Numbered from the stretch's first letter, positions 660 to 57,387 are shown. The stretch is 64,000 nt of DNA from Halobacteriovorax marinus (GCA_002163155.1 MAAO01000016.1:1-64000); one strand, 5' to 3'. The notes: generated from the letters alone by a model not told the origin. Made by a program: numbers and translations.

Positions 660-745
660 TGGTGGCGAAAGATGGATTCGAACCATCGAAGGGATAACCC
701 GACAGATTTACAGTCTGTTGCCTTTGGCCACTCGGCAATTTCGCC
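660..745 (-). tRNA. tRNA-Tyr(GTA)
   Basis: Class II tRNA with long variable arm, anticodon loop TGTAAAT, encoded CCA. Confidence 0.95.
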
Positions 746-4488: not shown

Positions 4489-4917
4489 CTACTTTGTGAT
4501 TATTGCCATTGTAAGTCTAGAGACACAAACCAATTGCTTTTCTTCGTTGAAAATTTTTATTTCCCAAACATGACTCTTTTTTCCGATATGGATGGCTTCA
4601 CATATTCCTGTGACAAGTCCTGATTTAGCACTCTTGATATGACTGGCATTTATACTTTGTCCTACAGCTGCGAACTTCTTAGGATCTACAACTAAATTTG
4701 AAGCGATACTTCCAAGGGACTCAGCCAATACACAAGACGCCCCTCCATGAAGTAAACCAAAAGGCTGTTTAGTTTTATCTGTTACAGGCATTGTCCCTAC
4801 CAGAGAGTTCTCCTTAAGTTCGGTAACCTGAATATCTAATAAACCTGTCATCGACGACAAACCTCTTTTATTTACAGGATCCAAGTCGTAATCATTAAAC
4901 CAAATACTCACAAACAC
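4489..4917 (-). CDS. Hotdog-fold thioesterase (PaaI/YdiI type)
   Basis: PFGLLHGGASCVLAESLGSIAS motif typical of hotdog thioesterases. Confidence 0.85.
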   Translation of the reverse strand: MFVSIWFNDYDLDPVNKRGLSSMTGLLDIQVTELKENSLVGTMPVTDKTKQPFGLLHGGASCVLAESLGSIASNLVVDPKKFAAVGQSINASHIKSAKSGLVTGICEAIHIGKKSHVWEIKIFNEEKQLVCVSRLTMAIITK

Positions 4918-12495: not shown

Positions 12496-13377
12496 TTAAT
12501 TCACTGAAGGCTTATATGGCTTTCCATCAACAAAAACTTTATATAGATTTGTATTTTCAAATTCTATCAATCCCATCTTAACTCCAACAAAGTTAACATT
12601 TCGAAGTTCACAATCAGTAAATGTAAGTCCTAGAGAATTAACTTTATTGAAAATTACATTTTCTAGCTTAGTATTCTTAAACTGAGTGCTCTCTAAGTCT
12701 GACCCATTAAAATGAACGTGAACCAGATGACTATTGTTAGAAATTTCATTTCCCTTAAATTCGACGTTATTGAATTTAAAGTGTGAAAGTTTAATATTTT
12801 CAAAATGAGAAATATTCCACTTCCCTCCGCTCATAGAACCTTTATACATTTTGCCGGAAACTAAACTTACATCGATAAAAGTACTTTTATTAATTTTAAT
12901 ATTTTGAAAGTTAATTTCCAAAAGCTTAGAGTTTCTAAATTCAGTTAAGTAAATCGTTGAACGCAAAAGCGAAAAAAGAGAAGAGTTCAAATTCTTTATA
13001 TAAATGGCCTTAATATGTGATAATTCTATTAGTAAGTTTTCAACATCAACATTCAAAAGTTTTCCATAGTTCCAATAAGTATTTCGTAAAGATATTCTTT
13101 TATTTCTAATATCTTGCAACTGGAAGAAAGTAAGGGAGCTTGCCGTAAAACCAATATCTTTAGAAGTAGAATTGATAACAGAGGAATCTAATAAATACGT
13201 ATTTAGGAAGTCGATCTTTTCACTACTAAAAATTAGGGAGTCCTTAACCGTCGCTCTACTAAAGAAAGAACTCTCTTCTAGTTTTAGACTTTCATCACTA
13301 ATAGTTGAATTAAAAAAGTTTTTGCCAAAGGAATTGGCACAAGTAAAAAGTAAAACTAGAATAAGAAAATATCTCAT
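12496..13377 (-). CDS. Exported pentapeptide-repeat-like protein
   Basis: Signal peptide MRYFLILVLLFTCANSFG; repeats such as HFNGSDLESTQFKNTKLENVIFN. Confidence 0.65.
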   Translation of the reverse strand: MRYFLILVLLFTCANSFGKNFFNSTISDESLKLEESSFFSRATVKDSLIFSSEKIDFLNTYLLDSSVINSTSKDIGFTASSLTFFQLQDIRNKRISLRNTYWNYGKLLNVDVENLLIELSHIKAIYIKNLNSSLFSLLRSTIYLTEFRNSKLLEINFQNIKINKSTFIDVSLVSGKMYKGSMSGGKWNISHFENIKLSHFKFNNVEFKGNEISNNSHLVHVHFNGSDLESTQFKNTKLENVIFNKVNSLGLTFTDCELRNVNFVGVKMGLIEFENTNLYKVFVDGKPYKPSVN

Positions 13378-13892
13378 CTCTCTCCCCTATCATTTGAAAA
13401 AATCATTCCCCTCTTCATGGCCTCAGCTCTAGAAAAAGGAAGAATTGTTGAATTATTAAACAATGCACCGTCAAAAATAGTATTACCTACATGGGAATAC
13501 ATAAATTCAGTTCCACGTAAGTCCGAAAAACTTAAGTTACAGTCTGTAAAAATCACATCTCTAAATTGAACTCTTCTTAAATCTGTATAAATAAAATTAG
13601 AATTGGCAATATTAACATTCTTAATCTTTCCACCATTGAGCTTAGCAAAACTAAAATCAGTATTTTCGATATCAATATTTTCAAATAAAAAATATACGAT
13701 ATGAGATTTGTGAAAATTAATTTCTCTAAAGTCCTTTTTAGGTACAAATTTTTTAATGACAGAAAATGAATAATTTCTTTCTTTCACGTCAGTATCGATA
13801 CTTTCAATACGAGTCCCAACACTTTGAGAAACCGTAACATTGGCCATTAGACATAAATTAAATATAAATTTAAGGAGTAAATTCAAGCTCAT
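13374..13892 (-). CDS. Exported pentapeptide-repeat protein
   Basis: NTDFSFAKLNGGKIKNVNIANSNFIYTDLRRVQFRDVIFTDCNLSFSDLRGTEF; 4-nt overlap with the next gene. Confidence 0.7.
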   Translation of the reverse strand: MSLNLLLKFIFNLCLMANVTVSQSVGTRIESIDTDVKERNYSFSVIKKFVPKKDFREINFHKSHIVYFLFENIDIENTDFSFAKLNGGKIKNVNIANSNFIYTDLRRVQFRDVIFTDCNLSFSDLRGTEFMYSHVGNTIFDGALFNNSTILPFSRAEAMKRGMIFSNDRGER

Positions 13893-14592
13893 AATCTACC
13901 TTCATTAAAACAGGTATTAATACCGTTTCATTTTTTGCTGTTATTAAAACATTTTGTATTTCTGTTATTAGAGGTGTTTCGTAAGAAAGGGTATTGCAGG
14001 GAGATTTATTCACAATAAATACCTCTCTCTTTTCCAGGTTTTCTAGAAATTTTTCATTTATATTTATCATTTGTTCACATTTTGTCTGTGCAAGATATTT
14101 CATTCTTCGATTAAGGCACTGAGCTTTTCTCATACGATGCTTTTTACATGAAAAAGTATTATCAACAGATTTTACAGATAAACTACCATAGTGAGTTGTT
14201 TCAAGAGTATTTTTAAAAAAGGGTGTTAAACTCTTTGTTTCAATTATGTGTTGTTTAAATCTAGCAAGCTCTCCTTCTGTACCGTATATAGAAAAAGTTA
14301 TTGAACTATTATTCACAAATGTATCCCAATGAATCGAACCATCAGTCCAACTCACCATATCTTCAGAATAGTCAAAGCTACCAACCCCTGAAATGAAGTT
14401 AGCCGATACTACATTATTAAAATTACCATAAACGACTAATGAGATTAACCCTTCTCTAGTTTCTAGGATTTCATAGGTTGCATGCTTTGCAATTTCAGTA
14501 AGCTCGTTATCTAGCGGTCCACCGGTAATCATTCGATCAATAGTCACTGCATTAACGTTTAAGAATATGAGAAAAACAATAAAATATCTCAT
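13870..14592 (-). CDS. Exported protein of unknown function
   Basis: Signal peptide MRYFIVFLIFLNVNA; overlaps neighbours. Confidence 0.65.
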   Translation of the reverse strand: MRYFIVFLIFLNVNAVTIDRMITGGPLDNELTEIAKHATYEILETREGLISLVVYGNFNNVVSANFISGVGSFDYSEDMVSWTDGSIHWDTFVNNSSITFSIYGTEGELARFKQHIIETKSLTPFFKNTLETTHYGSLSVKSVDNTFSCKKHRMRKAQCLNRRMKYLAQTKCEQMININEKFLENLEKREVFIVNKSPCNTLSYETPLITEIQNVLITAKNETVLIPVLMKVDYELEFTP

Positions 14593-16316
14593 TAAATCCC
14601 ACCAGCATTCTTTATTAGTTTAATTAATTTCTTATTTCCCGTCTTTTTAGCGAGACTCAATACTGTTTCACCATGAACATTCTTAAGATTGATCAACTCG
14701 CTGATATTAAAATCAGGTCTTGAAGAAAAAACAGGTTTCTTTAATAAGTATTTAGCAATTTCATACTTTCCAAAACGCGTGGCCATAAGTAAGACCGATT
14801 CATTCAAAGGGTTAATAAAATTTAAGTCTGCTCCATTTGCTACATACCTTTTAAGCTCTTTGACTGTTGGAATAGACACCTTTGACATAAAAGCATAATG
14901 AAGAGGTACAAAACCAAGTCTGTCCCTAACGGCCCAATGACCTTTCCAGAGTTTTGAAGTTGTCACTTTTGAAGTACTTAGGAATTTATAATTACCATTT
15001 CCTCTTGAATAAAGTGCATAAGATAAAGGACTCTGACCAAGTAAATTATACTGATCGTCAATTGCGATATATCTCCAGTTGGCCCAAACTTTTCGGACCT
15101 CTCTCTTTAAGAATTTTAAATTACTGCTAACAACTTTAGTTTCTTTTGGAAGATCAAAACCTAAGAAAGTATGTAATATATTATTTTTTGTCTCATACTC
15201 AGGTCTAGGAAGAGAGTGAGATTCGTACACACTTTCCATTTTTGATCTCACATGATATCGAACTAACATCCCACCATTTTTTAAAAACCTAGAAAAATAA
15301 TTAGTAGAAGACCCTTCACCTTGATGAGAAACCAAATTCGTGTAATCAAAAACATTAATTCCTGCATTAAGTAATAAATTAGCAATATCAACGTGTCCCA
15401 TTAATAGAGCATTATTAATCGCCTTGCTATTTAATTCAAACGAGTAGCTTTCTAGTAGTGAATGTATAATTTCCTTGTGACCATTCGCAGCTGCAATTTC
15501 TAAAGGTGAGCCAATACTGCTTTCAAAAGTAGTATCAACTCCTAAACTAATTAATAACTTCATTAAGGCCGTATTTCCATTTTCAGCTGCGTAGTGAATC
15601 AAGGCATAGTTTGTCTTTCCAGCATACGAGAACCTTCGATTTAACCCTTCAGTTGCTTCACGTAGTAAATCCTGTGCAGCAACAATGTCTGAATGAAAGT
15701 AAAAATCTGGAGAAATTTCATTATTAATAATTTTCTTTAAGACAAATGTATTATCGACGCCTCGAGAGAGTAAAGACCACACTATATTTGGTAAATTGTT
15801 TTCGTAGGCTAACGCCAAGGGAGATTTTCCCCAAGGAGTTTCTTTTTCAAGATCTCCACTGTAATGATTAATGAAATAGTTTGAATGATCACTATCTTTG
15901 AGCGTTGAATTTTCAATAAGAGCGTGAAGTGCAGTATAACTATAGTCTTCAGAGTAAAGAGGGGCTTTATTTAAAACTCTTCTGGCTAAGTTAATTCTCT
16001 TGGCCTTAATCACTTCTAAAAGAAAAGATGAATTGGATCCAACTTTAAAGTTTGCATCAAAACCTTTTCTCTTAACTAAGTAGCTAAAAATATCTGGTAA
16101 GCCAAAAATAACTCTTCGCTCTTCTGATTGTAAAAGCGCTAGTAAGAGTGGCTGACCATTACATGTTGCATCTTTAGTAATATTTTCAATAGCGACCTCT
16201 ACGGACTCTTTACAAGTCTTCACATAAATATCGTTGAATTCTTGAAGTTTAACCTCTTCATCACAAGAGGCAAAAGATAAGAGAATAGTTAAAAGAAATA
16301 GTGTTTTAATTTTCAT
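14592..16316 (-). CDS. Ankyrin-repeat lipoprotein
   Basis: MKIKTLFLLTILLSFASCDEE lipobox; repeats such as NYALIHYAAENGNTALMKLLISLGVDTTFESSIGSPLEIAAANGHKEIIHSLL. Confidence 0.85.
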   Translation of the reverse strand: MKIKTLFLLTILLSFASCDEEVKLQEFNDIYVKTCKESVEVAIENITKDATCNGQPLLLALLQSEERRVIFGLPDIFSYLVKRKGFDANFKVGSNSSFLLEVIKAKRINLARRVLNKAPLYSEDYSYTALHALIENSTLKDSDHSNYFINHYSGDLEKETPWGKSPLALAYENNLPNIVWSLLSRGVDNTFVLKKIINNEISPDFYFHSDIVAAQDLLREATEGLNRRFSYAGKTNYALIHYAAENGNTALMKLLISLGVDTTFESSIGSPLEIAAANGHKEIIHSLLESYSFELNSKAINNALLMGHVDIANLLLNAGINVFDYTNLVSHQGEGSSTNYFSRFLKNGGMLVRYHVRSKMESVYESHSLPRPEYETKNNILHTFLGFDLPKETKVVSSNLKFLKREVRKVWANWRYIAIDDQYNLLGQSPLSYALYSRGNGNYKFLSTSKVTTSKLWKGHWAVRDRLGFVPLHYAFMSKVSIPTVKELKRYVANGADLNFINPLNESVLLMATRFGKYEIAKYLLKKPVFSSRPDFNISELINLKNVHGETVLSLAKKTGNKKLIKLIKNAGGI

Positions 16317-16349
16317 TCCTGCTCCTACAGATTGTTTTCAGGATACTTA

Positions 16350-16366
16350 AAGCAAGTTGTGTGCCA
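16350..16366 (-). promoter_or_regulatory. Sigma54 (-24/-12) promoter for the ankyrin/pentapeptide operon
   Basis: Reverse strand TGGCACACAACTTGCTT, exact GG-N10-GC spacing, about 34 nt before the ATG at 16316. Confidence 0.75.
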
Positions 16367-16398
16367 ATTCAAGGGTGGCTAAAGTACTAATAAAAGGA

Positions 16399-16434
16399 GT
16401 GCTCCAACCTCTCTGTTTCGATTTTGGAACACTT
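16399..16434 (-). other. Inverted repeat: terminator or activator-binding dyad
   Basis: AGTGCTCCAA ... TTGGAACACT between two minus-strand genes, upstream of the sigma54 promoter. Confidence 0.45.
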
Positions 16435-16440
16435 CTTTTC

Positions 16441-17580
16441 TTATAAGAGATTTTGAAGTTCTTGAGAGAAGTTCTCTTTATTAAGTGCAGGAATTTCAAT
16501 TGTATTGTGGCTTTGAATAGCGCCATAATTGATATCATTGATTGAAATATCAATAACGCCAATTTCTTCAACTTCTTCTTTAGAATAAGCTAATTCAACT
16601 CCAACAATCGCACTAGAGCCACTTCCACCATTTGAGCTTGAAAAAGTCACTGGCTTTAAAGGGTCCTGCTCATTAGGAGTATTTCCATCTTTTGTTGCTG
16701 TAAAAGAATAAAAGTAATTTTTGAGCATCTCTGTAAACATCTTCATGTAGTGAGCTTTAATTTGTGGATCAGTACTTTGAATATTTAACTTTAGATGACC
16801 TGTGAATGCTAACTGTTTCATGGCCTTACTAATTTTTGCTTCAACTTGTGCAGATACATATTTAAATGTCCCTGTTAACTTTCCACCTGCACTCATCATC
16901 GAACGAAATTTTCTTGTATCTATTTTAAGAGATACATTATCTTCGTACTTATATGGGTGAGCAAGTTTGATAGAAGGAAAAGCTGGACCAATTCCCTTCA
17001 TCATTGATTTAGCAAATGCTGGCTCTAACTTTTTAGGAACAAGAATTGAGATGTTAAAAGTTCTAGCAACATTAAAATTAGTACAATTATCTAAACTATC
17101 TTGAGAAAAACCAAATTTCACTTGCGTAATATTTGCAGAAGAATCTGCAGCACCAATAATTGTCGGCAATCCTAAGGCCATACCACACAGAGGTAACATT
17201 CCAACAATCTTAGCTTCGTACCCATGAATTCTTCTTAACTTCTGAGTTGCTCTTATCAATTTCTCTTGCCCAAGATTCTCGAGAGATACTTTCATATCAT
17301 ATTTAGAAAATTTGTTTCCATTCGCATCTTCAATGAAACCTTGAGTTACGGCTTGCGTATTTTTAATCACGAGATTACCATTTTCATCAGGAATAAGATC
17401 ACTATGAGTCCTTAACTTAAACTTTGTTGGTAACCAATAGAATGTATCCGGATTATCAGCATCTTGAATAAGCATTCTTCCTTTTAAATTTACATGTGCT
17501 CCGTTCCACAAACTAGCCCCTGCTCCAGCCTGGGCAGAGATAGTAGAGAGTAGAATTGCAATTGAAACTAGAAACTTCAT
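16441..17580 (-). CDS. Exported protein of unknown function (start trimmed to MKFLVSIAILLSTISAQA)
   Basis: Signal peptide begins at the internal Met; FYWLP motif shared with the 18799-20211 product. Confidence 0.65.
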   Translation of the reverse strand: MKFLVSIAILLSTISAQAGAGASLWNGAHVNLKGRMLIQDADNPDTFYWLPTKFKLRTHSDLIPDENGNLVIKNTQAVTQGFIEDANGNKFSKYDMKVSLENLGQEKLIRATQKLRRIHGYEAKIVGMLPLCGMALGLPTIIGAADSSANITQVKFGFSQDSLDNCTNFNVARTFNISILVPKKLEPAFAKSMMKGIGPAFPSIKLAHPYKYEDNVSLKIDTRKFRSMMSAGGKLTGTFKYVSAQVEAKISKAMKQLAFTGHLKLNIQSTDPQIKAHYMKMFTEMLKNYFYSFTATKDGNTPNEQDPLKPVTFSSSNGGSGSSAIVGVELAYSKEEVEEIGVIDISINDINYGAIQSHNTIEIPALNKENFSQELQNLL

Positions 17581-17588
17581 AAATACTC

Positions 17589-18797
17589 CTATAAACAGTC
17601 TGAATTCCGAGGAATCCATTTCTTATTGTTATTAATTAAACACTTAAACTGAGAACTTTTAATGAAACTATTAATATCATCATGAATAGTTTTATCTATA
17701 TCTTCAGCTGCTATCGCTACAAATACATCTTCAGTTTTTTCTTTAAATATTCTTCCACTAATTGTATTTTTTATTTCCGATTTTCTTACTAGGGCACTTG
17801 GTTCGTACACAATTAACCTTTGAGCCGCGTCGATAAGACTTGAAACGAAATTTGTCTGAAGAAACTTGTTATATAACTTCGTATAGAAACGATCCTCTAA
17901 TAAAGGATCAGCTTTTTCGTCAAAGGCAAAGTCTATAACCATGCTCTGACTTGAAACCATTTTCTTTAAAACATAAGTTGTTCTTTTTTCATTTCTACAG
18001 TGGTGGCGATTTTTACACTTCGTTATGAATATATATTTCTTACATGTTCTAGTCGTCCAACAAACTTTTTCATAATATGCTTTTTTTTCAAATTCACTAA
18101 AGGCTGCATAATCTCCTCTAATAAATCCTTCAGCCTCTATTTCATCAAAAGATGTTTTCATTCTCAGAACTGCTTCTTTAATAATCTTTCCAGAAACAAT
18201 TTTTTTAAACACTCTACCTTTTTCATGAAGAGGATTGTTTTTGATATCAAGCTCTAAAAGAATTCCCCTATCGTCACTTCTTAGAGAAATGTTATAATCA
18301 AACTCTATATCAGTTGATGCCAAGGCCAAAACGACATTCTGAACACTTAGTGGAACCTGCTGAATTTCCTTTATGCTACTTAAACATTTTTTTGCGTAAA
18401 CAGTGTCTTCTAGATCCAACTGATACTTTTTGACTCTTCTATTTTCTTCATCAAGTTTAGTTTTTATAAAGAAATTTATATTTTTTAGATAATTCTCTTT
18501 CCTTTCTTGATCTAATGACTGAGGCCTTAAAACTAAGTGGTAAAGACTCTTAGGCACCTTTACTCTTTCTCCTTGTATGAATTTATTCTTCATTTTAAGT
18601 TCACTAAAAGACAGGTCTTTATCAACAATCCAATCATGTTGAAAAATGTATACCTTCCTACATTCGCCTCCAATCAGAGCAATATCTCCCTTCTCGCCTA
18701 GGGGAATCACTCCCCCTAGGTTAAAAAGCGACGACTCAGATGAAAAACAACTTAATTGAAAACAAAAAGTCAAAATAACTAGAGTTAGATTTCTCAT
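17589..18797 (-). CDS. Exported protein of unknown function
   Basis: Signal-peptide-like MRNLTLVILTFCFQLSCFS; cysteine-rich segment CWTTRTCKKYIFITKCKNRHHC; operonic. Confidence 0.65.
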   Translation of the reverse strand: MRNLTLVILTFCFQLSCFSSESSLFNLGGVIPLGEKGDIALIGGECRKVYIFQHDWIVDKDLSFSELKMKNKFIQGERVKVPKSLYHLVLRPQSLDQERKENYLKNINFFIKTKLDEENRRVKKYQLDLEDTVYAKKCLSSIKEIQQVPLSVQNVVLALASTDIEFDYNISLRSDDRGILLELDIKNNPLHEKGRVFKKIVSGKIIKEAVLRMKTSFDEIEAEGFIRGDYAAFSEFEKKAYYEKVCWTTRTCKKYIFITKCKNRHHCRNEKRTTYVLKKMVSSQSMVIDFAFDEKADPLLEDRFYTKLYNKFLQTNFVSSLIDAAQRLIVYEPSALVRKSEIKNTISGRIFKEKTEDVFVAIAAEDIDKTIHDDINSFIKSSQFKCLINNNKKWIPRNSDCL

Positions 18798-18798
18798 A

Positions 18799-20211
18799 TT
18801 AATCCTCTAAATCTAAACACGTTTCATTAATTGGTATTAATGACTTTCCAATTAAATTTTTATGTAGCTTAAGCTGTTTAAAGTAACTTCTTTGGACACA
18901 CCTAAACATAGATGTATTGTACTCATCTCTACTTAGGACAATATTCTCATTACTGTCTCTATAGATATCTGCACTAATCGAAATCCCTTCAAATGTTGAT
19001 TGTTTGATTTGAATCTTATAATCAACTCCCGCTGTAGATTCACCTTCCTTTCCATTAAAGAAGACGGCGCCATCTTTTGCTTTGAAAGTTGTTTTAAAAA
19101 CTCCATCAGAGATTTGTTGCACTTGCTGATCTAGATTGAATTGTACTAATTGCTCTAACATTTTATACTCAACCCATTGTTGGAGCGGAAATGTTTTACA
19201 CTGGCTATCATCATTACAAACAATCTTAGTTTTACCATTAAAGTTTGATTTTCCATGATCAAATAAAATTTTCACATCAGAACTTCCACTCACCATATTT
19301 GTCGTTAACTTGTACGTACATACTGATGTTGTTGAGGAAGAACCACCAAATAAGGATCCACCAACAAATGCTCCAACGGGTCCGCCAATTAAACCTCCGA
19401 CAGCTGCTCCCATAATTTGATCTTCACTATCAGTACTCGTAACATTACAGCCTAAATTTTTCATACTACTTTCAAACTCTGCAGAAAACTTTCCTGTAAA
19501 ATAATATGAGCTGTTTACATTTAACTCACGCCCTTTAATCTCATAAATCAGCTGCCCTACCTTAGAGCCTTCACCGTAAGTTTTCCATTTCTTGTCTTCG
19601 GTCTTACTAAAAGGATGACTTGCATCATGATAAATTTCACCCCAAAAATGTGAAAGAGGGCTAAAGACAGTGTCGTTATCGAATTTATTAGAAAGATCAA
19701 AGGCGCCATAAGGTCCCTTCTTGTTTGTCACTTCGCTATCAACATTCTTCATAGCGGACATTTTTCTAACTGGAATGACATTTAAGTTAATTTCACCAGG
19801 TGTTACATTCGTACAGTGCTTATATTCTTCAGCACCACCTTTGATTTGACTTGAAATATGTTGAACAATTTTGTTTCTAAGCTTTACTTCATTCTTATTA
19901 AGGTTAAAATCTGGTTTGACTTCAATTTCCATTTTAGAAGCAAATCCAATATAACTTTGATTATTACTTTCTATCAACTTAGGAACAACAGTGTGATTGA
20001 AGTGTCCCGAAGTTTTATAAACACCAGGGAGCCAATACCAAGTTGCACAGGCCTCATGATCTCTATAAGCTACAAGGTTTTGTTTTTGATTTTCTAATAC
20101 ATCGACCTTTGAACTTGTAAGAACTGTAACTGCCTGTGTTTGAGAACACATCAATGCTAGAAAAGGTAATATTGCTAATTTAGATTTCATTAATCCCTCC
20201 AATTTTTTCAA
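18799..20211 (-). CDS. Exported protein of unknown function with glycine-zipper segment
   Basis: Signal peptide (probable start MKSKLAILPFLALMCSQTQA at 20190); IMGAAVGGLIGGPVGAFVGGSLFGG; WYWLP motif. Confidence 0.65.
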   Translation of the reverse strand: MKKLEGLMKSKLAILPFLALMCSQTQAVTVLTSSKVDVLENQKQNLVAYRDHEACATWYWLPGVYKTSGHFNHTVVPKLIESNNQSYIGFASKMEIEVKPDFNLNKNEVKLRNKIVQHISSQIKGGAEEYKHCTNVTPGEINLNVIPVRKMSAMKNVDSEVTNKKGPYGAFDLSNKFDNDTVFSPLSHFWGEIYHDASHPFSKTEDKKWKTYGEGSKVGQLIYEIKGRELNVNSSYYFTGKFSAEFESSMKNLGCNVTSTDSEDQIMGAAVGGLIGGPVGAFVGGSLFGGSSSTTSVCTYKLTTNMVSGSSDVKILFDHGKSNFNGKTKIVCNDDSQCKTFPLQQWVEYKMLEQLVQFNLDQQVQQISDGVFKTTFKAKDGAVFFNGKEGESTAGVDYKIQIKQSTFEGISISADIYRDSNENIVLSRDEYNTSMFRCVQRSYFKQLKLHKNLIGKSLIPINETCLDLED

Positions 20212-20249
20212 ACTCTAATTTGAGTTTAGAATTGTTTCGAAGAGCAATT

Positions 20250-20265
20250 TGCAAGGAGAAGGCCA
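20250..20265 (-). promoter_or_regulatory. Sigma54 (-24/-12) promoter for the 20211-16441 operon
   Basis: Reverse strand TGGCCTTCTCCTTGCA, exact GG-N10-GC spacing. Confidence 0.7.
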
Positions 20266-20294
20266 ACAATCTATTAAGTAACAATCAAAATATT

Positions 20295-20310
20295 GTTCCA
20301 CTCTTGGAAC
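20295..20310. promoter_or_regulatory. Dyad GTTCCA-CTCT-TGGAAC between divergent sigma54 promoters (candidate enhancer site)
   Basis: Perfect 6-bp inverted repeat, 4-nt spacer. Confidence 0.4.
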
Positions 20311-20368
20311 CTTTGTTCTTATTTCGAAACAAAAACAGACAAAAAACACCCAATTCATTACAGATTTG

Positions 20369-20384
20369 TGGCATCAGAAATGCA
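20369..20384 (+). promoter_or_regulatory. Sigma54 (-24/-12) promoter for 20430
   Basis: TGGCATCAGAAATGCA, exact GG-N10-GC spacing, 46 nt before the ATG. Confidence 0.65.
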
Positions 20385-20429
20385 CTTATACATATTAGTT
20401 AAGTAACCCACGTTAATAAGGATGGATAA

Positions 20430-21245
20430 ATGAAACCAACGATTATACTTCTCGCTCTTTCACTAAGTACACTGCAAGTACAGGCCCAAGATAAGACTCT
20501 CGAAGAAAAGTTAACACCTTTAAGGACACAATTTTTAAACACACTAACGACATTAGATAAAACAAACGAATCGTCCCTAAGTACTAAGACAAAGGACAGG
20601 CTTATTAGACTTGCTAAGAACCTTAGGTCTGACTTCATGTCTTTAGAGAATATAGAAATCGACCTAGAGCTAGAAAGACTTAAGCAAGATTTTCATATTG
20701 ATATGAAAAAGAAAACTAACTGTTTTAACAAGTGTGAATATATTACTGTTCTTCAACCAGATCTTCCATTTTATCTACAGAGTGAAAGTAGAGTTTCATC
20801 ATTAAAGATAATCGTTAATAAACTTTCAAAAAAATATGCCGATTCTTACTCCAGAATTCGTAGTATTGAAAGTACTCACTACGTACTAGGAAGAGAATTA
20901 CAAAAAGGGATTATTCATAAAACAGATCTTATAAGTAACATGTCTAAAAACATTAAATCGATTCAGGACGCTAAGAAAACCAAGGACATGTTCGCAAACA
21001 AATATGGACTCAAAACATTATTTAACCCACAAACTAATAAATTTAGCTGGGACATAGAATTGCTCGTCAAGAAAACATCTTTTATCTCCTTCAAAGAAAT
21101 GGATAAAGAAACAAAGGACAAATATTATTTTCACCTTGCTGAGTATGAAAATGAAATGCAATCTGCTTACCAGCCTTATTTCACATTAATGTCTGAAGGT
21201 GAGCATGGCTTTATTATTAATACTATAACTTCACTCGACGAGTAG
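20430..21245 (+). CDS. Exported coiled-coil-like protein of unknown function
   Basis: Signal peptide MKPTIILLALSLSTLQVQA. Confidence 0.65.
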   Translation: MKPTIILLALSLSTLQVQAQDKTLEEKLTPLRTQFLNTLTTLDKTNESSLSTKTKDRLIRLAKNLRSDFMSLENIEIDLELERLKQDFHIDMKKKTNCFNKCEYITVLQPDLPFYLQSESRVSSLKIIVNKLSKKYADSYSRIRSIESTHYVLGRELQKGIIHKTDLISNMSKNIKSIQDAKKTKDMFANKYGLKTLFNPQTNKFSWDIELLVKKTSFISFKEMDKETKDKYYFHLAEYENEMQSAYQPYFTLMSEGEHGFIINTITSLDE

Positions 21246-21248
21246 TTT

Positions 21249-21542
21249 ATGAGAATGGAAAAGCTCTTCCTATTAATACTCCTAGTACTTGTGTCGTGTG
21301 GGAAAGATTCATCTTTAACTGGGGAAGTAATTAATCCTCCTACGAACACTTCTAATAATACAAACCAAGAGGACAATGTAAGAAGGTGTGAAACAGAAAT
21401 AGTGAATAAATTGTTTAATACAGAATTAGAATTAGCCTCAAAAGGACCTGATAGTAACGAATCTATCAAAGTGTATTCTAAACTATTGAATGACTTGAAC
21501 TTTCAACTTCAGGAGCTTGAGAACTGTAAAAGTATAAACTAG
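21249..21542 (+). CDS. Small lipoprotein
   Basis: MRMEKLFLLILLVLVSCGKD lipobox. Confidence 0.65.
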   Translation: MRMEKLFLLILLVLVSCGKDSSLTGEVINPPTNTSNNTNQEDNVRRCETEIVNKLFNTELELASKGPDSNESIKVYSKLLNDLNFQLQELENCKSIN

Positions 21543-26628: not shown

Positions 26629-26645
26629 TGGCACTGTAGTTGCTA
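26629..26645 (+). promoter_or_regulatory. Sigma54 (-24/-12) promoter for the flagellar operon
   Basis: TGGCACTGTAGTTGCTA, near-consensus, 67 nt before flgF. Confidence 0.8.
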
Positions 26646-26711: not shown

Positions 26712-27551
26712 TTGAAGGAACTTTGGGTCCCATTATCAGGTGCAATAGCTCAAATGCGAAAAGTTGAGACTATAGCCAATAATGTAGCCAACGCAAACAC
26801 GCCTGGATTTAAGAAAGATCATCTCATCTTTAAAGAGCATTTAACTCAATTTGAAAAAGGTTATGAACAAGACATAGACCTCCCTCACAAGGAATGGAAG
26901 CCATCGGACTTTTACAGAAGTTATGGCGCAGAGCACGCAAAAGTAAAAATAGATGGATCTTATACTGATTTTAAACAGGGCCAATTAACTCCTACCAGTA
27001 ATCCTCTTGATCTAGGATTAAAGGGAAAAGGTTTTTTAGAAGTCCTCACTCCAAACGGTATCCGTTTCACAAGAAAAGGAAGTCTTACTATAAATGGTAC
27101 TGGTCAGTTAGTTACTGACGGTGGAAATCCTGTATTGAATAAGATTGACCCCGCTCTTCTTGCTGCAAATGCAGATGGAGCACCCCTACCAAAACCAGAA
27201 GAAAGATTTATTAATATTCCTTCTGGTGGAAGACTCTCTGTAAACTTACAAGGTGAAATACTTGTAAATAATACAAAAATTGCAGACCTTTCAGTTGTCG
27301 AATTCAAAGATATTCAATCTCTTCGTAAAGAAGGGAACTCCTTTTACATAAATAACGATTTTAAAAACATTAGTACTGGACCAGTTAAGACTGCGATTCA
27401 TCAAGGCTTCGTTGAACAATCCAATGTTAACGCTATAGCAGAAATGTCTGAGTTGATTAGAGCAAACAGACAATTTGAAAGTATCCAAAGAGTGATAAAG
27501 ACCTACGACAACATTAGTGGAAAAGGCATAAACGAAATTGCAAAATTCTAA
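26712..27551 (+). CDS. flgF: Flagellar proximal rod protein FlgF (TTG start)
   Basis: Flagellar rod N-terminus VETIANNVANANTPGFKK and C-terminus EMSELIRANRQFESIQRVIKTYD; first of the flgF-flgG pair. Confidence 0.85.
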   Translation: MKELWVPLSGAIAQMRKVETIANNVANANTPGFKKDHLIFKEHLTQFEKGYEQDIDLPHKEWKPSDFYRSYGAEHAKVKIDGSYTDFKQGQLTPTSNPLDLGLKGKGFLEVLTPNGIRFTRKGSLTINGTGQLVTDGGNPVLNKIDPALLAANADGAPLPKPEERFINIPSGGRLSVNLQGEILVNNTKIADLSVVEFKDIQSLRKEGNSFYINNDFKNISTGPVKTAIHQGFVEQSNVNAIAEMSELIRANRQFESIQRVIKTYDNISGKGINEIAKF

Positions 27552-53972: not shown

Positions 53973-55472
53973 CTAATAATAAGATTTGGGACTAATTTCA
54001 TATTTCTCAATCTTTCTAAGCAAAGTTTTCTTAGGAATATTTGCTTTAAGAGCTGTTTGATTGATCTTACCCTTATTTAACTTAAGGGCATGAACAATGA
54101 ACTGCTTTTCAAAAAGGTCTTTTGCCACTTGAAAATCAAGTTTAATTTCATTGTCTTCTGTAATGGTTGCAAAAGTAAATTGATACTTCTCTACCTCACT
54201 AGCGTCCAGAGCTTTATCGACAACTGAATCCTGAATGCCCTGAAAGTCTATTTGTACACTAGACGTCTCACTCACCTCTTCAGGAATAGACTTAATATTG
54301 GCACTCTTCTTAACTACTTCTGGAAGAGATGAAATATTTATCTGTTCACTAGATTCAATTATAAAAGCATGTTCAATTACATTACGAAGCTCACGAATAT
54401 TTCCAGGCCATGAGTAATTTGTTAGCACATTAAGAGCGTCTGGAACACATCCCTTCATGTCGAGATTATGAATTCCATTGAAGTAGTTGACGTAGTAATC
54501 AATTAAAAATGGAATATCTGATTTTCTTTCTCGCAGTGGTGGAAGATAAACAGGAAGAACATTTAATCTATAAAATAAATCTTCCCTAAAAGTTCCTTCT
54601 TTGATCATTTCTTCAAATGGTTTATGCGATGCTGCGATCACTCTAACATCTGCTTTAATAACTCTATTTGATCCCACAGGTGTGAACGTTTTCTCTTGTA
54701 AGACACGCAGTAACTTTACTTGCATCGTAGATGAGATATCACCAATTTCATCTAAGAAAAGTGTACCGCCATCAGCATATTGAAACTTACCAATTTTTCT
54801 CTCACTAGCTCCCGTGAAAGCTCCTTTTTCGTGTCCAAAAAGTTCAGATTCAATCAGAGTATCAGGAATCGCTGCTAAGTTGATGGTTACAAACTTATCG
54901 TCTTTCCTTGGCCCATTAAAGTGAATGGCCTTAGCAACAAGCTCTTTACCTGTCCCAGATTCACCTCTAATAAGAACAGGTGTATTCACCTGTGCAAGTT
55001 TTGAGATTATCCCAAAGACTTTCTGCATGACATCTGACTCACCAACAAATTTATCATTACCAGTTCCTAAAGAAAGAGTTGGTGCAGAAAAAATTGAAGT
55101 CTCAACTAAACTTCTCGCCTTTAGAGCTCTTTTAATTAGTGCTACTAAGTTCTCAGAAGAAATAGGTTTTTCAAGATAGTTAAATGCTCCTTCCTTTACG
55201 GCCTTAACAGCATCTCCAACATTAGAATAGGCTGTTAATATAAGGACAATTATTGAAGGGTCATATTTCTTTATTTCGGTGAGAGCTTCAATACCACTCA
55301 TCTCAGGCATGTTTACATCCATAACCACGAGATCATATTTTTCTTTATAAACTGCACTCAGAGCTTCTTTACCATTGTCAGCGGTATCAACTTTGAAATG
55401 ATGGAATTCTAAAGCCTGCTTGACTGAATCTTGTAAGACTTTGTCATCATCAACCACTAGTACTCTATGCAT
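53973..55472 (-). CDS. NtrC-family sigma54-dependent response regulator
   Basis: Receiver domain; GESGTGKELVAKAIH, GAFTGASERKIGKF; Fis-like HTH. Confidence 0.95.
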   Translation of the reverse strand: MHRVLVVDDDKVLQDSVKQALEFHHFKVDTADNGKEALSAVYKEKYDLVVMDVNMPEMSGIEALTEIKKYDPSIIVLILTAYSNVGDAVKAVKEGAFNYLEKPISSENLVALIKRALKARSLVETSIFSAPTLSLGTGNDKFVGESDVMQKVFGIISKLAQVNTPVLIRGESGTGKELVAKAIHFNGPRKDDKFVTINLAAIPDTLIESELFGHEKGAFTGASERKIGKFQYADGGTLFLDEIGDISSTMQVKLLRVLQEKTFTPVGSNRVIKADVRVIAASHKPFEEMIKEGTFREDLFYRLNVLPVYLPPLRERKSDIPFLIDYYVNYFNGIHNLDMKGCVPDALNVLTNYSWPGNIRELRNVIEHAFIIESSEQINISSLPEVVKKSANIKSIPEEVSETSSVQIDFQGIQDSVVDKALDASEVEKYQFTFATITEDNEIKLDFQVAKDLFEKQFIVHALKLNKGKINQTALKANIPKKTLLRKIEKYEISPKSYY

Positions 55473-55488: not shown

Positions 55489-57387
55489 TTATCTATTTCT
55501 CATTTTTATTTTAAAAGTTGTTCCTTCACCTAGCTTCGATTCAGCTACAATCGTCCCTCCATGAAGTTCTACAAAGTATTTTACCAGATATAAGCCAAGA
55601 CCGGTCCCTTTAATTGAGTGACTTGCATCATTTTTTACCCGATAAAACTTCTCAAATATATACTCTACTTCTTCTTCGGGAATTCCTACTCCATTATCAC
55701 TAATCGTAATATAGACCCACTCGTCGTCATCCCAAGTTTTGACTAGGACTTCTGAACCATCACCAGAGTACTTAATGGCGTTTTCTACCAGGTTTGAAAA
55801 TACGCGCTTCATTAAATTCAAATCAAATTCAATTGGGTAGAGAGGACTCAGCTCCTTAACAACTGAGACATTTTTTTGTGAAGCTTCATATCTCAGACCT
55901 TCAATTGTGGTTTCAACGACAGTGTTAATATCTTTAGAAATCATATTTAAAGAGATTTTTCTTGATTCAACTTTAGTTAGGTCAAGAATTGAGGTGATAA
56001 ATTTATTTAATTCTTTCGTCGAGTCAATTATTGATTGTAGGCCATTCGATAGATCTGTATTTTCTATATTTTTTTGCTTCATAACATCTGCCATTCCTGC
56101 AATTTTCGCTACTGGAGTTTTCAAGTCATGACTCATTAATGAAATAAAATTTTGCTTAAGGTTCTCAACTTTCTTTAGAAGTTTTGTTTCTTCCTGAATA
56201 GCATATCTACGTTGATATTCACCAATTGCTCTAAATGGTACCCAAATGTAGTAGACAACAAATACTGTCAAAACAATATGCGTAGTATAGAGCCATAGCC
56301 CCAGCAGGGAGAAAAGAAAATATGCGAGAATGATAACTCCAAACATAAGCGCCAAAGTCATCGCAAGGCCAGTTGTAGGCCTCATTCGAGAAATTATGAT
56401 TGATAGAAAAAGTGCAATCAGTATCGCCAAGACATAAGAGACATCTTTTGGAATTTGTAGAACTGTTTTGTTTTGAATAAAAGCTTCAATAATTTCTGCG
56501 TGAACAGCTAGTTTTGATGTGTCATATTCCTCTCTATTAAATGGAGTCAATACGGTATCACTTGTATTAGAAATATAGCTAGGACCAACTAAGACAATTT
56601 TATCTTCAAAGAAACCTTTAGGAAAATTTCCTACTAGGACTCTGTGAAAAGGAATCTTCTTAATTTTTGCATATTTCGAAATTGGAGATGTGAAGTATCT
56701 AAACATAGCAAAGGTTGCATCTGCCTCTTGCAAATAATATGAGCCTTGAATCGAAGTAGCATCTAATCGTTCAGCATTACGATGTTCTCTATATGAGTTT
56801 GCCATCCAAAGGTGAAATGATTCTTCACCCGAAATATTAATTAAGGCCCTTCTAGAAATATCATCTTTTGCAAAGGTAGCATTATCAACATTTAAAAGAG
56901 CAAGAGAGTAACCAAGATCTGCTAGATCCTTTGGTGGTATATGCTCATCCCAATCATCCATGTTGGTTCCAAATCGAAAAACTCCCCCATTTTTTTTATA
57001 GTTGTTAATAGAGTCTTTGAATTTAAACAGAGCTACATCTTCTCTTTTAGAGTCCGGTGCCAATAGACCAATCAAATAGCCTATTGCTGCAGGACCGTCT
57101 TTAATTAATCTCTTAGATAAAACCTCATGTGAAGCATAAGTATAAGGATAACTCTCACCTAGAAACTGATCACTCTCTTCGTCCATTGTTATTAAAACAA
57201 TTCTGTCTTGATAACTTATTCCCCAATCAAACTTAATTCTAAGATCATAGAAAACTGCTTCAAGTGATGAAAAAGAGTATTGAAATAATACAATAATAAA
57301 AATTACTGTAAAAATAAGTGGATATAGCCTAGAGCTATCAAAAGAAAATTTCTTCTTTTTGTTACTTGAGTTTTCTAAATTTTCCAA
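55489..57387 (-). CDS. CHASE2-domain sensor histidine kinase
   Basis: CHASE2 extracytoplasmic region, 3 TM, LMSHDLKTPVAKIAG H-box, GTGLGLYLVKYFVELHGG. Confidence 0.93.
   Translation of the reverse strand: MENLENSSNKKKKFSFDSSRLYPLIFTVIFIIVLFQYSFSSLEAVFYDLRIKFDWGISYQDRIVLITMDEESDQFLGESYPYTYASHEVLSKRLIKDGPAAIGYLIGLLAPDSKREDVALFKFKDSINNYKKNGGVFRFGTNMDDWDEHIPPKDLADLGYSLALLNVDNATFAKDDISRRALINISGEESFHLWMANSYREHRNAERLDATSIQGSYYLQEADATFAMFRYFTSPISKYAKIKKIPFHRVLVGNFPKGFFEDKIVLVGPSYISNTSDTVLTPFNREEYDTSKLAVHAEIIEAFIQNKTVLQIPKDVSYVLAILIALFLSIIISRMRPTTGLAMTLALMFGVIILAYFLFSLLGLWLYTTHIVLTVFVVYYIWVPFRAIGEYQRRYAIQEETKLLKKVENLKQNFISLMSHDLKTPVAKIAGMADVMKQKNIENTDLSNGLQSIIDSTKELNKFITSILDLTKVESRKISLNMISKDINTVVETTIEGLRYEASQKNVSVVKELSPLYPIEFDLNLMKRVFSNLVENAIKYSGDGSEVLVKTWDDDEWVYITISDNGVGIPEEEVEYIFEKFYRVKNDASHSIKGTGLGLYLVKYFVELHGGTIVAESKLGEGTTFKIKMRNR

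Follow-up and report, generated by a model that had tools for sequence, protein, structure and literature searches.

Predicted sigma54 control of an island of exported-protein genes in Halobacteriovorax marinus

Nine consecutive genes for exported proteins in a Halobacteriovorax marinus genome probably form three sigma54-dependent operons, controlled by one activator (enhancer-binding protein, EBP) at the palindrome TGTTYC-N6-GRAACA and belonging to a larger regulon of mainly exported proteins. The island occupies positions 12496-21542 of the whole stretch of DNA analysed, 64,000 nt long and hereafter called the window (contig C5:1-64000); the genome scanned comprised 4.55 Mb in 16 contigs. 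The original prediction, made from the window, had proposed, besides a possible link to predation or the surface, a co-regulated programme of exported proteins under sigma54. The co-regulation is supported by the presence of rpoN and GAFTGA-type activators, by a common operator, by conservation and by the enrichment of exported proteins behind sigma54 sites. A penicillin-binding protein neighbouring the island showed 78% identity to that of 'Bacteriovoracaceae bacterium UBA3083' and 52% to that of a 'Halobacteriovoraceae' MAG.

Results

Genes of the island

The island contained nine ORFs in three operons, p7-p6-p5 (start 20190, minus strand), p4-p3-p2-p1 (start 16316, minus strand) and p8-p9 (start 20430, plus strand):

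18799..20190, minus strand: p7, 463 aa, predicted exported, with a glycine-rich hydrophobic segment; homologs in four genera, distant ones in other families
17589..18797, minus strand: p6, 402 aa, predicted exported, cysteine-rich; adjoins p7 in 4 of 4 related family loci
16441..17583, minus strand: p5, 380 aa, predicted exported, N-terminal FYWLP.K motif; distant p7 relative (probable)
14592..16316, minus strand: p4, 574-aa ankyrin-repeat lipoprotein; found with the module also in L240 and L241
13870..14592, minus strand: p3, 240 aa, predicted exported; no known family
13374..13892, minus strand: p2, pentapeptide-repeat protein, predicted exported
12496..13377, minus strand: p1, pentapeptide-repeat protein, predicted exported
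20430..21245, plus strand: p8, 271 aa, predicted exported; homolog at the same divergent position in L240 and L241, and probably in L242
21249..21542, plus strand: p9, 97-aa lipoprotein with an LVSC lipobox, in the p8 operon

By inspection, all nine proteins carry the N-terminal signal peptide or lipobox that had been claimed for them. The family types proposed at the same time held in part: ankyrin repeats in p4 (Ank_2, 3.8e-27) and pentapeptide repeats in p1 and p2 were above the Pfam cut-offs, whereas the glycine zipper of p7 was visible but had no significant family match. NCBIfam and PADLOC searches of the island proteins revealed generic repeat similarity and nothing more. The similarity of p1, an exported protein, to the Qnr/MfpA quinolone-protection proteins was of this kind (38 bits against an NCBIfam cut-off of 240), as was the sole match to the known anti-phage defence systems in PADLOC, located in the ankyrin region of p4. 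An hhalign comparison (81% over the N-terminal 100 columns) points to a probable distant relationship between p5 and p7; no clear relation of p6 to either was found. PDB profile searches with p7 and p5 gave no meaningful match, single-sequence AlphaFold models of the two had a mean pLDDT of 33-35, and no relative of p7 was detected when genome contigs were scanned with it.

Promoters of the island

Three GG-N10-GC sites had been claimed in the island, and all were present on the strands claimed, in intergenic DNA and with exact -24 (TGGC(A/C)-type) and -12 (TGC) elements at the fixed spacing:

20250..20265, minus strand: predicted sigma54 promoter of the p7-p6-p5 operon, TGGCCTTCTCCTTGCA, exact GG-N10-GC
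16351..16366, minus strand: predicted sigma54 promoter of p4-p3-p2-p1 (the ankyrin-lipoprotein operon), TGGCACACAACTTGCT
20369..20384, plus strand: predicted sigma54 promoter of p8-p9, TGGCATCAGAAATGCA, with the lowest PWM score of the three

The second site had been placed at 16350-16366; its sequence and strand were correct, but it starts at 16351, position 16350 adding one T. The sites had been put at about 20-60 nt before start codons, and the measured distances agree. The 20250 site lies 60 nt from the ATG at 20190, which has a GGAGG Shine-Dalgarno sequence (a TTG at 20211 is the less likely start of p7), and the 16351 and 20369 sites lie 34 and 45 nt from theirs.

With a PWM trained on other sites, the 16351 site scored 24.7 and the 20250 site 16.9, both above everything in a 200 kb background. 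The 20369 site scored 12.1, which was reached four times in that background. The proposed comparison with background thus upheld two sites but not the third, which, with its score at background level, needs context and conservation for support. Within the window the correct spacing gave 4 matches and ten wrong spacings together gave 1. The clustering of the three sites had also been offered as evidence, and this argument did not survive simulation: three of 64 sites fell within 4 kb of each other somewhere in 9% of random placements. Clustering is therefore weak evidence and was dropped as an argument for sigma54 control.

A fourth strict site in the window, TGGCACTGTAGTTGCT (26629-26644, plus strand), is located 68 nt upstream of a flagellar rod operon starting at 26712. 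It is a plausible positive control within the window.

Sigma54 machinery and genome-wide sites

One rpoN was detected in the genome (Sigma54_DBD match, E 5.5e-65), together with 15 AAA+ activator-domain matches. At least six sigma54-competent activators are predicted: among the loci examined in full, the GxFTGA loop was found in six EBPs and was absent from L098. One candidate regulon activator is encoded in the window itself, an NtrC-type EBP with a response-regulator domain (53973-55472, minus strand), beside a histidine kinase (55489-57387, minus strand) with an N-terminal region that appears CHASE2-like by inspection.

The strict pattern TGGCMYN5WTGCW occurred 64 times in the genome as compared to 6 times for the reversed control, a count slightly fitted because the pattern was chosen to match all three island sites. 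A looser pattern, TGGC-N8-TGCW, gave 148 matches against 41 for the control. By a simple ORF caller 51 of the 64 strict sites were intergenic, and 47 of these had a same-strand start within 150 nt. The first gene was predicted to be exported in 39 of the 47 cases (approximately 83%), compared to 32% of the first-in-unit genes in 200 kb of unselected genome (Fisher p ~3e-9, and 1.5e-8 without the island); the exported calls stem from a crude hydrophobicity rule that was applied equally to site genes and background. The proportion was similar in two species of another genus, 18 of 21 in G013 and 8 of 9 in G031 (86-89%). Paralogy was discarded as the cause of the enrichment, the 47 first genes having no mutual similarity.

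About three quarters of 40 non-island sigma54 genes had no family in a Pfam scan. The remainder includes a subtilase, an S33 hydrolase, a fatty-acid cis/trans isomerase, a Kazal domain, a BamE-like lipoprotein and two cytoplasmic enzymes. A cytoplasmic HTH-like protein of about 110 aa (...IQ.TR.FRI.NG...) was encoded directly behind sigma54 sites in several genera (L061, L084, L124, L185) and is possibly a downstream regulator.

The island-type operator

The palindrome TGTTYC-N6-GRAACA was found upstream of all three island promoters, 28-57 nt from the sigma54 site:

20294..20311, no strand assigned: putative operator 1, TGTTCCACTCTTGGAACC, common to the divergent promoters; gap of 28 nt to the 20250 site and 57 nt to the 20369 site
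20314..20331, no strand assigned: putative operator 2, TGTTCTTATTTCGAAACA, 20 bp from operator 1; gaps of 48 and 37 nt, respectively
16414..16431, no strand assigned: putative operator 3, TGTTCCAAAATCGAAACA when read on the minus strand; gap of 47 nt to the 16351 site

The 16414 operator overlaps, by eye, the apparent p5 terminator, and the palindrome at 20295 was scored as terminator-like.

Eight exact copies of the operator were present in 4.55 Mb, one of them in the island (16414-16431). Three of the eight are located 29-47 nt upstream of strict sigma54 sites, and the two of these outside the island (L033 and L057) precede exported proteins. A fourth lies 38-39 nt upstream of a one-mismatch sigma54 site (L096/L231), and at L049 an exact copy lies some 40 nt upstream of TGGCACTTAAATTGTA, a near-site whose -12 element is imperfect, at a gene for a trypsin-like lipoprotein. 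The gene at L231:1360-6894 (minus strand; G000 contig C15), behind the island-type operator and a sigma54-like promoter, encodes an exported protein of 1,844 aa with weak SpvB and FG-GAP matches.

The motif was discovered by inspecting these sequences, so that the independent test is the search of the family. When operator and sigma54 site were searched as a single pattern, 18 matches were found in 7 of 129 family genomes, and the control gave 1. A gene followed within 200 nt in 16 intergenic cases, and in 13 of them it encodes an exported protein. An exported peptide family with a conserved DGGVKDADCNCGPADDGDPNVGYRT core was seen with the island-type operator in three genomes from two genera (L250, L253, L234).

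A second operator with stepped spacing

With up to one mismatch and a distance of up to 100 nt allowed, another palindrome, TGTC-N9-GACA (consensus TGTCTAA-N3-TTAGACA), was found upstream of 14 of the 44 non-island sigma54 sites, where approximately one was expected. Combined with the sigma54 site as a single pattern it was detected in 95 of the 129 genomes of the family, against 7 for the control. Among other palindromes tried, GTGTCA-N4-TGACAC and TGTC with most other spacers displayed little or no enrichment and were rejected, TGTC-N8-GACA alone being mildly raised. None of the EBPs of the genome was matched to either operator class.

In 150 listed cases this operator tended to lie 39-40, 49-50 or 57-58 nt from the -24 element, and gaps of 44-45 or 53-55 nt did not occur. 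Such steps fit dimer sites one helical turn apart. The far class has an additional TGT...ACA site, degenerate and about 18 bp closer to the promoter, and ACA at offset 32-35 occurred in 25 of 44 far sequences compared to 1 of 30 near ones. With this nearer site included, the proximal site of the far class is again near 39 nt, and pure helical phasing was accordingly abandoned as the explanation of the 56-60 nt gaps. An additional element, TAAST-N2-CTG, was observed 17-19 nt upstream of the -24 element in class-2 promoters of G000 and relatives, including six of the genome's own promoters.

Conservation of the module

Two other genera have the module as well, together with its sigma54 sites and the spacing of its operators, at 17-44% protein identity to the proteins of the window. 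The genome G006 (L242) carries p7-p6-p5 with divergent p8-like genes, the p7 and p6 homologs being side by side, and a search with p5 added the genomes G095 and G046. In G095 (L240) the order is ankyrin lipoprotein, p5, p6 and p7, divergent from a p8-like gene, whereas in G046 (L241) p7-p6-p5 is divergent from a p8-like gene plus the ankyrin lipoprotein.

Sigma54 sites precede p7, p8 and the ankyrin gene in L240. The counterpart of the 20250 site is found there at 4684-4699 (minus strand, TGGCACTGACTTTGCA), and in L241 at 4318 (minus strand, one mismatch); the counterpart of the 16351 site in L240 is at 697-712 (minus strand, TGGCATCGACTTTGCT). The weakly scoring 20369 site has strong counterparts at the equivalent position in both loci (L240 4804 and L241 4460, plus strand). 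Palindrome gaps in L240 are 27/47, 59/39 and 37 nt, compared to 28/48, 57/37 and 47 nt in the window. L241 has a strict site before p8 and the one-mismatch site before p7, and its palindromes read TATTYC-N6-GRAATA. No convincing sigma54 site was found at the p7-p6-p5 locus of G006.

The distribution of p5 is patchy: it was found in 4 of 129 family genomes and 6 of 369 genomes overall, and was absent from all four congeners searched. Remoter relatives of p5 and p7 were detected in two other families of the phylum. In one genome of another family (G296, L249) exported p5/p7-like proteins occur in tandem; they have a [FWY]Y-x-x-P motif in common close to the N-terminus and point to a larger family without a name.

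Discussion

The evidence from the whole genome and from the family indicates that the island is probably one locus of a sigma54 regulon that, in Bacteriovoracaceae-type bacteria, serves largely exported proteins. RNA polymerase with sigma54 waits at a closed promoter until a signal-activated EBP bound upstream remodels it. From the computed sites, spacing, operators, conservation and exported enrichment we infer that the palindromes are EBP sites, on the grounds of their position, spacing and conservation, and that the island genes would be induced together. In the proposed mechanism an EBP would bind TGTTYC-N6-GRAACA, with its centre about 60-90 nt before the transcription start, and would activate all three island promoters by ATP-driven remodelling of RNA polymerase-sigma54. 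The identical operator would control a few further exported proteins encoded outside the island, while a second class of EBP would use TGTCTAA-N3-TTAGACA for a larger set of genes. The products, predicted to reach the envelope or the outside of the cell, may constitute an envelope module centred on p5, p6 and p7; an envelope or contact module with the ankyrin lipoprotein as partner is our guess.

It is most improbable that the GG-N10-GC matches arose by chance and that the genes are transcribed from sigma70 promoters. The simulated clustering (9% of placements) and the background-level score of the 20369 site would agree with this, as would a sigma70-like TTGGCA-N16-TATCCT that overlaps the 16351 site, but two of the three sites outscore all of the 200 kb background, sigma54 sites are found at orthologous positions in two other genera, and sigma70-like matches in the region (30) are below the shuffled expectation of 36.9. 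Alternatively, the promoters may be sigma54-dependent but the palindrome may serve a repressor or form a terminator hairpin, with the EBP binding elsewhere or acting from solution. A repressor site would resemble the putative activator operator, palindromes of this size suit many HTH dimers, and the one at 20295-20310 is terminator-like on both strands. However, 20294-20331 lies between two divergent starts, where there is no transcript to terminate, and the conserved steps of 28-59 nt from the -24 element with tandem copies 20 bp apart, in the window as in L240, are activator geometry. Operator and promoter also stay together in relatives (18 matches against 1 in the control), and we regard this alternative as quite unlikely.

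Somewhat unlikely, yet deserving more weight, is a horizontally spread accessory module of toxin-immunity, contact or defence type that simply came under the control of the sigma54 system already present. Such an origin agrees with the preferred explanation as far as regulation is concerned and differs from it on the purpose of the products. The patchy occurrence of p5 (including its absence from the four congeners) speaks for it, and some defence and effector families include ankyrin and pentapeptide proteins. Against it, the 64,000-nt window showed no gene for an integrase or a mobile element, the G+C content of the island is close to that of its surroundings except at 12-14 kb, and the PADLOC match, in the ankyrin region, is a generic one. 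The sigma54 sites are moreover conserved along with the module, meaning that the regulation travels with it.

Sigma54 control of the cell exterior as such has already been published: comparative genomics has tied sigma54 promoters and EBPs to surface components including lipoproteins (Francke et al. 2011, PMC3162934), a text in which no mention of Bdellovibrio was found. That study concerns the transport and biosynthesis of surface precursors, whereas the targets here are structural genes of uncharacterised exported proteins, with specific operators. In the Desulfovibrio vulgaris sigma54 regulome (PMC4641369), EBPs likewise have specific palindromic UASs, which mostly lie no more than 100 nt from the promoter, but operators and targets are others, and the part examined contains no description of quantised spacing. 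NtrC-type activator sites are located at least ~70 bp upstream, and phasing relative to the promoter is known for one two-site system (PMC7408454), whereas the stepped spacing seen here extends, as a pattern in sequence, across many promoters and genomes. The global attack-phase regulator of Bdellovibrio bacteriovorus appears to be FliA (sigma28; PMC3627812). It is also an alternative sigma factor acting globally, on cell-surface anchors, proteases and uncharacterised proteins among others, but it recognises TTAAG-N16-CCGATA, whereas the elements analysed here are those of sigma54. We found no paper on sigma54 in Bacteriovorax or Bdellovibrionota in the open literature, and a cross-phylum sigma54 survey of 2025 (PMC12316311) does not mention Bacteriovorax or Bdellovibrionota genera. 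In the open literature searched, these operators, the module and the extent of the regulon are not described.

Tentatively, and with somewhat less than even confidence, we propose that sigma54 is the main switch of the secreted and envelope proteome in Bacteriovoracaceae-type bacteria, with at least two EBP operator codes, and that p5-p6-p7 plus the ankyrin lipoprotein represent an undescribed envelope or contact module. TGTCTAA-N3-TTAGACA would then be a family-wide code and TGTTYC-N6-GRAACA that of a subset, in what may be a parallel to FliA in Bdellovibrio.

In relatives of the Bdellovibrio-like predators, much of the genome codes for exported proteins to which no function has been assigned. 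The sigma factor and the two operators that mark a coordinated subset of these offer a way to sort exported proteins into regulons and to find the signals that deploy them, which would allow roles in prey contact, starvation or envelope stress to be tested. The spacing rule is in addition a natural data set, with many promoters from about a hundred genomes, for the placement that an EBP site requires relative to the sigma54 promoter.
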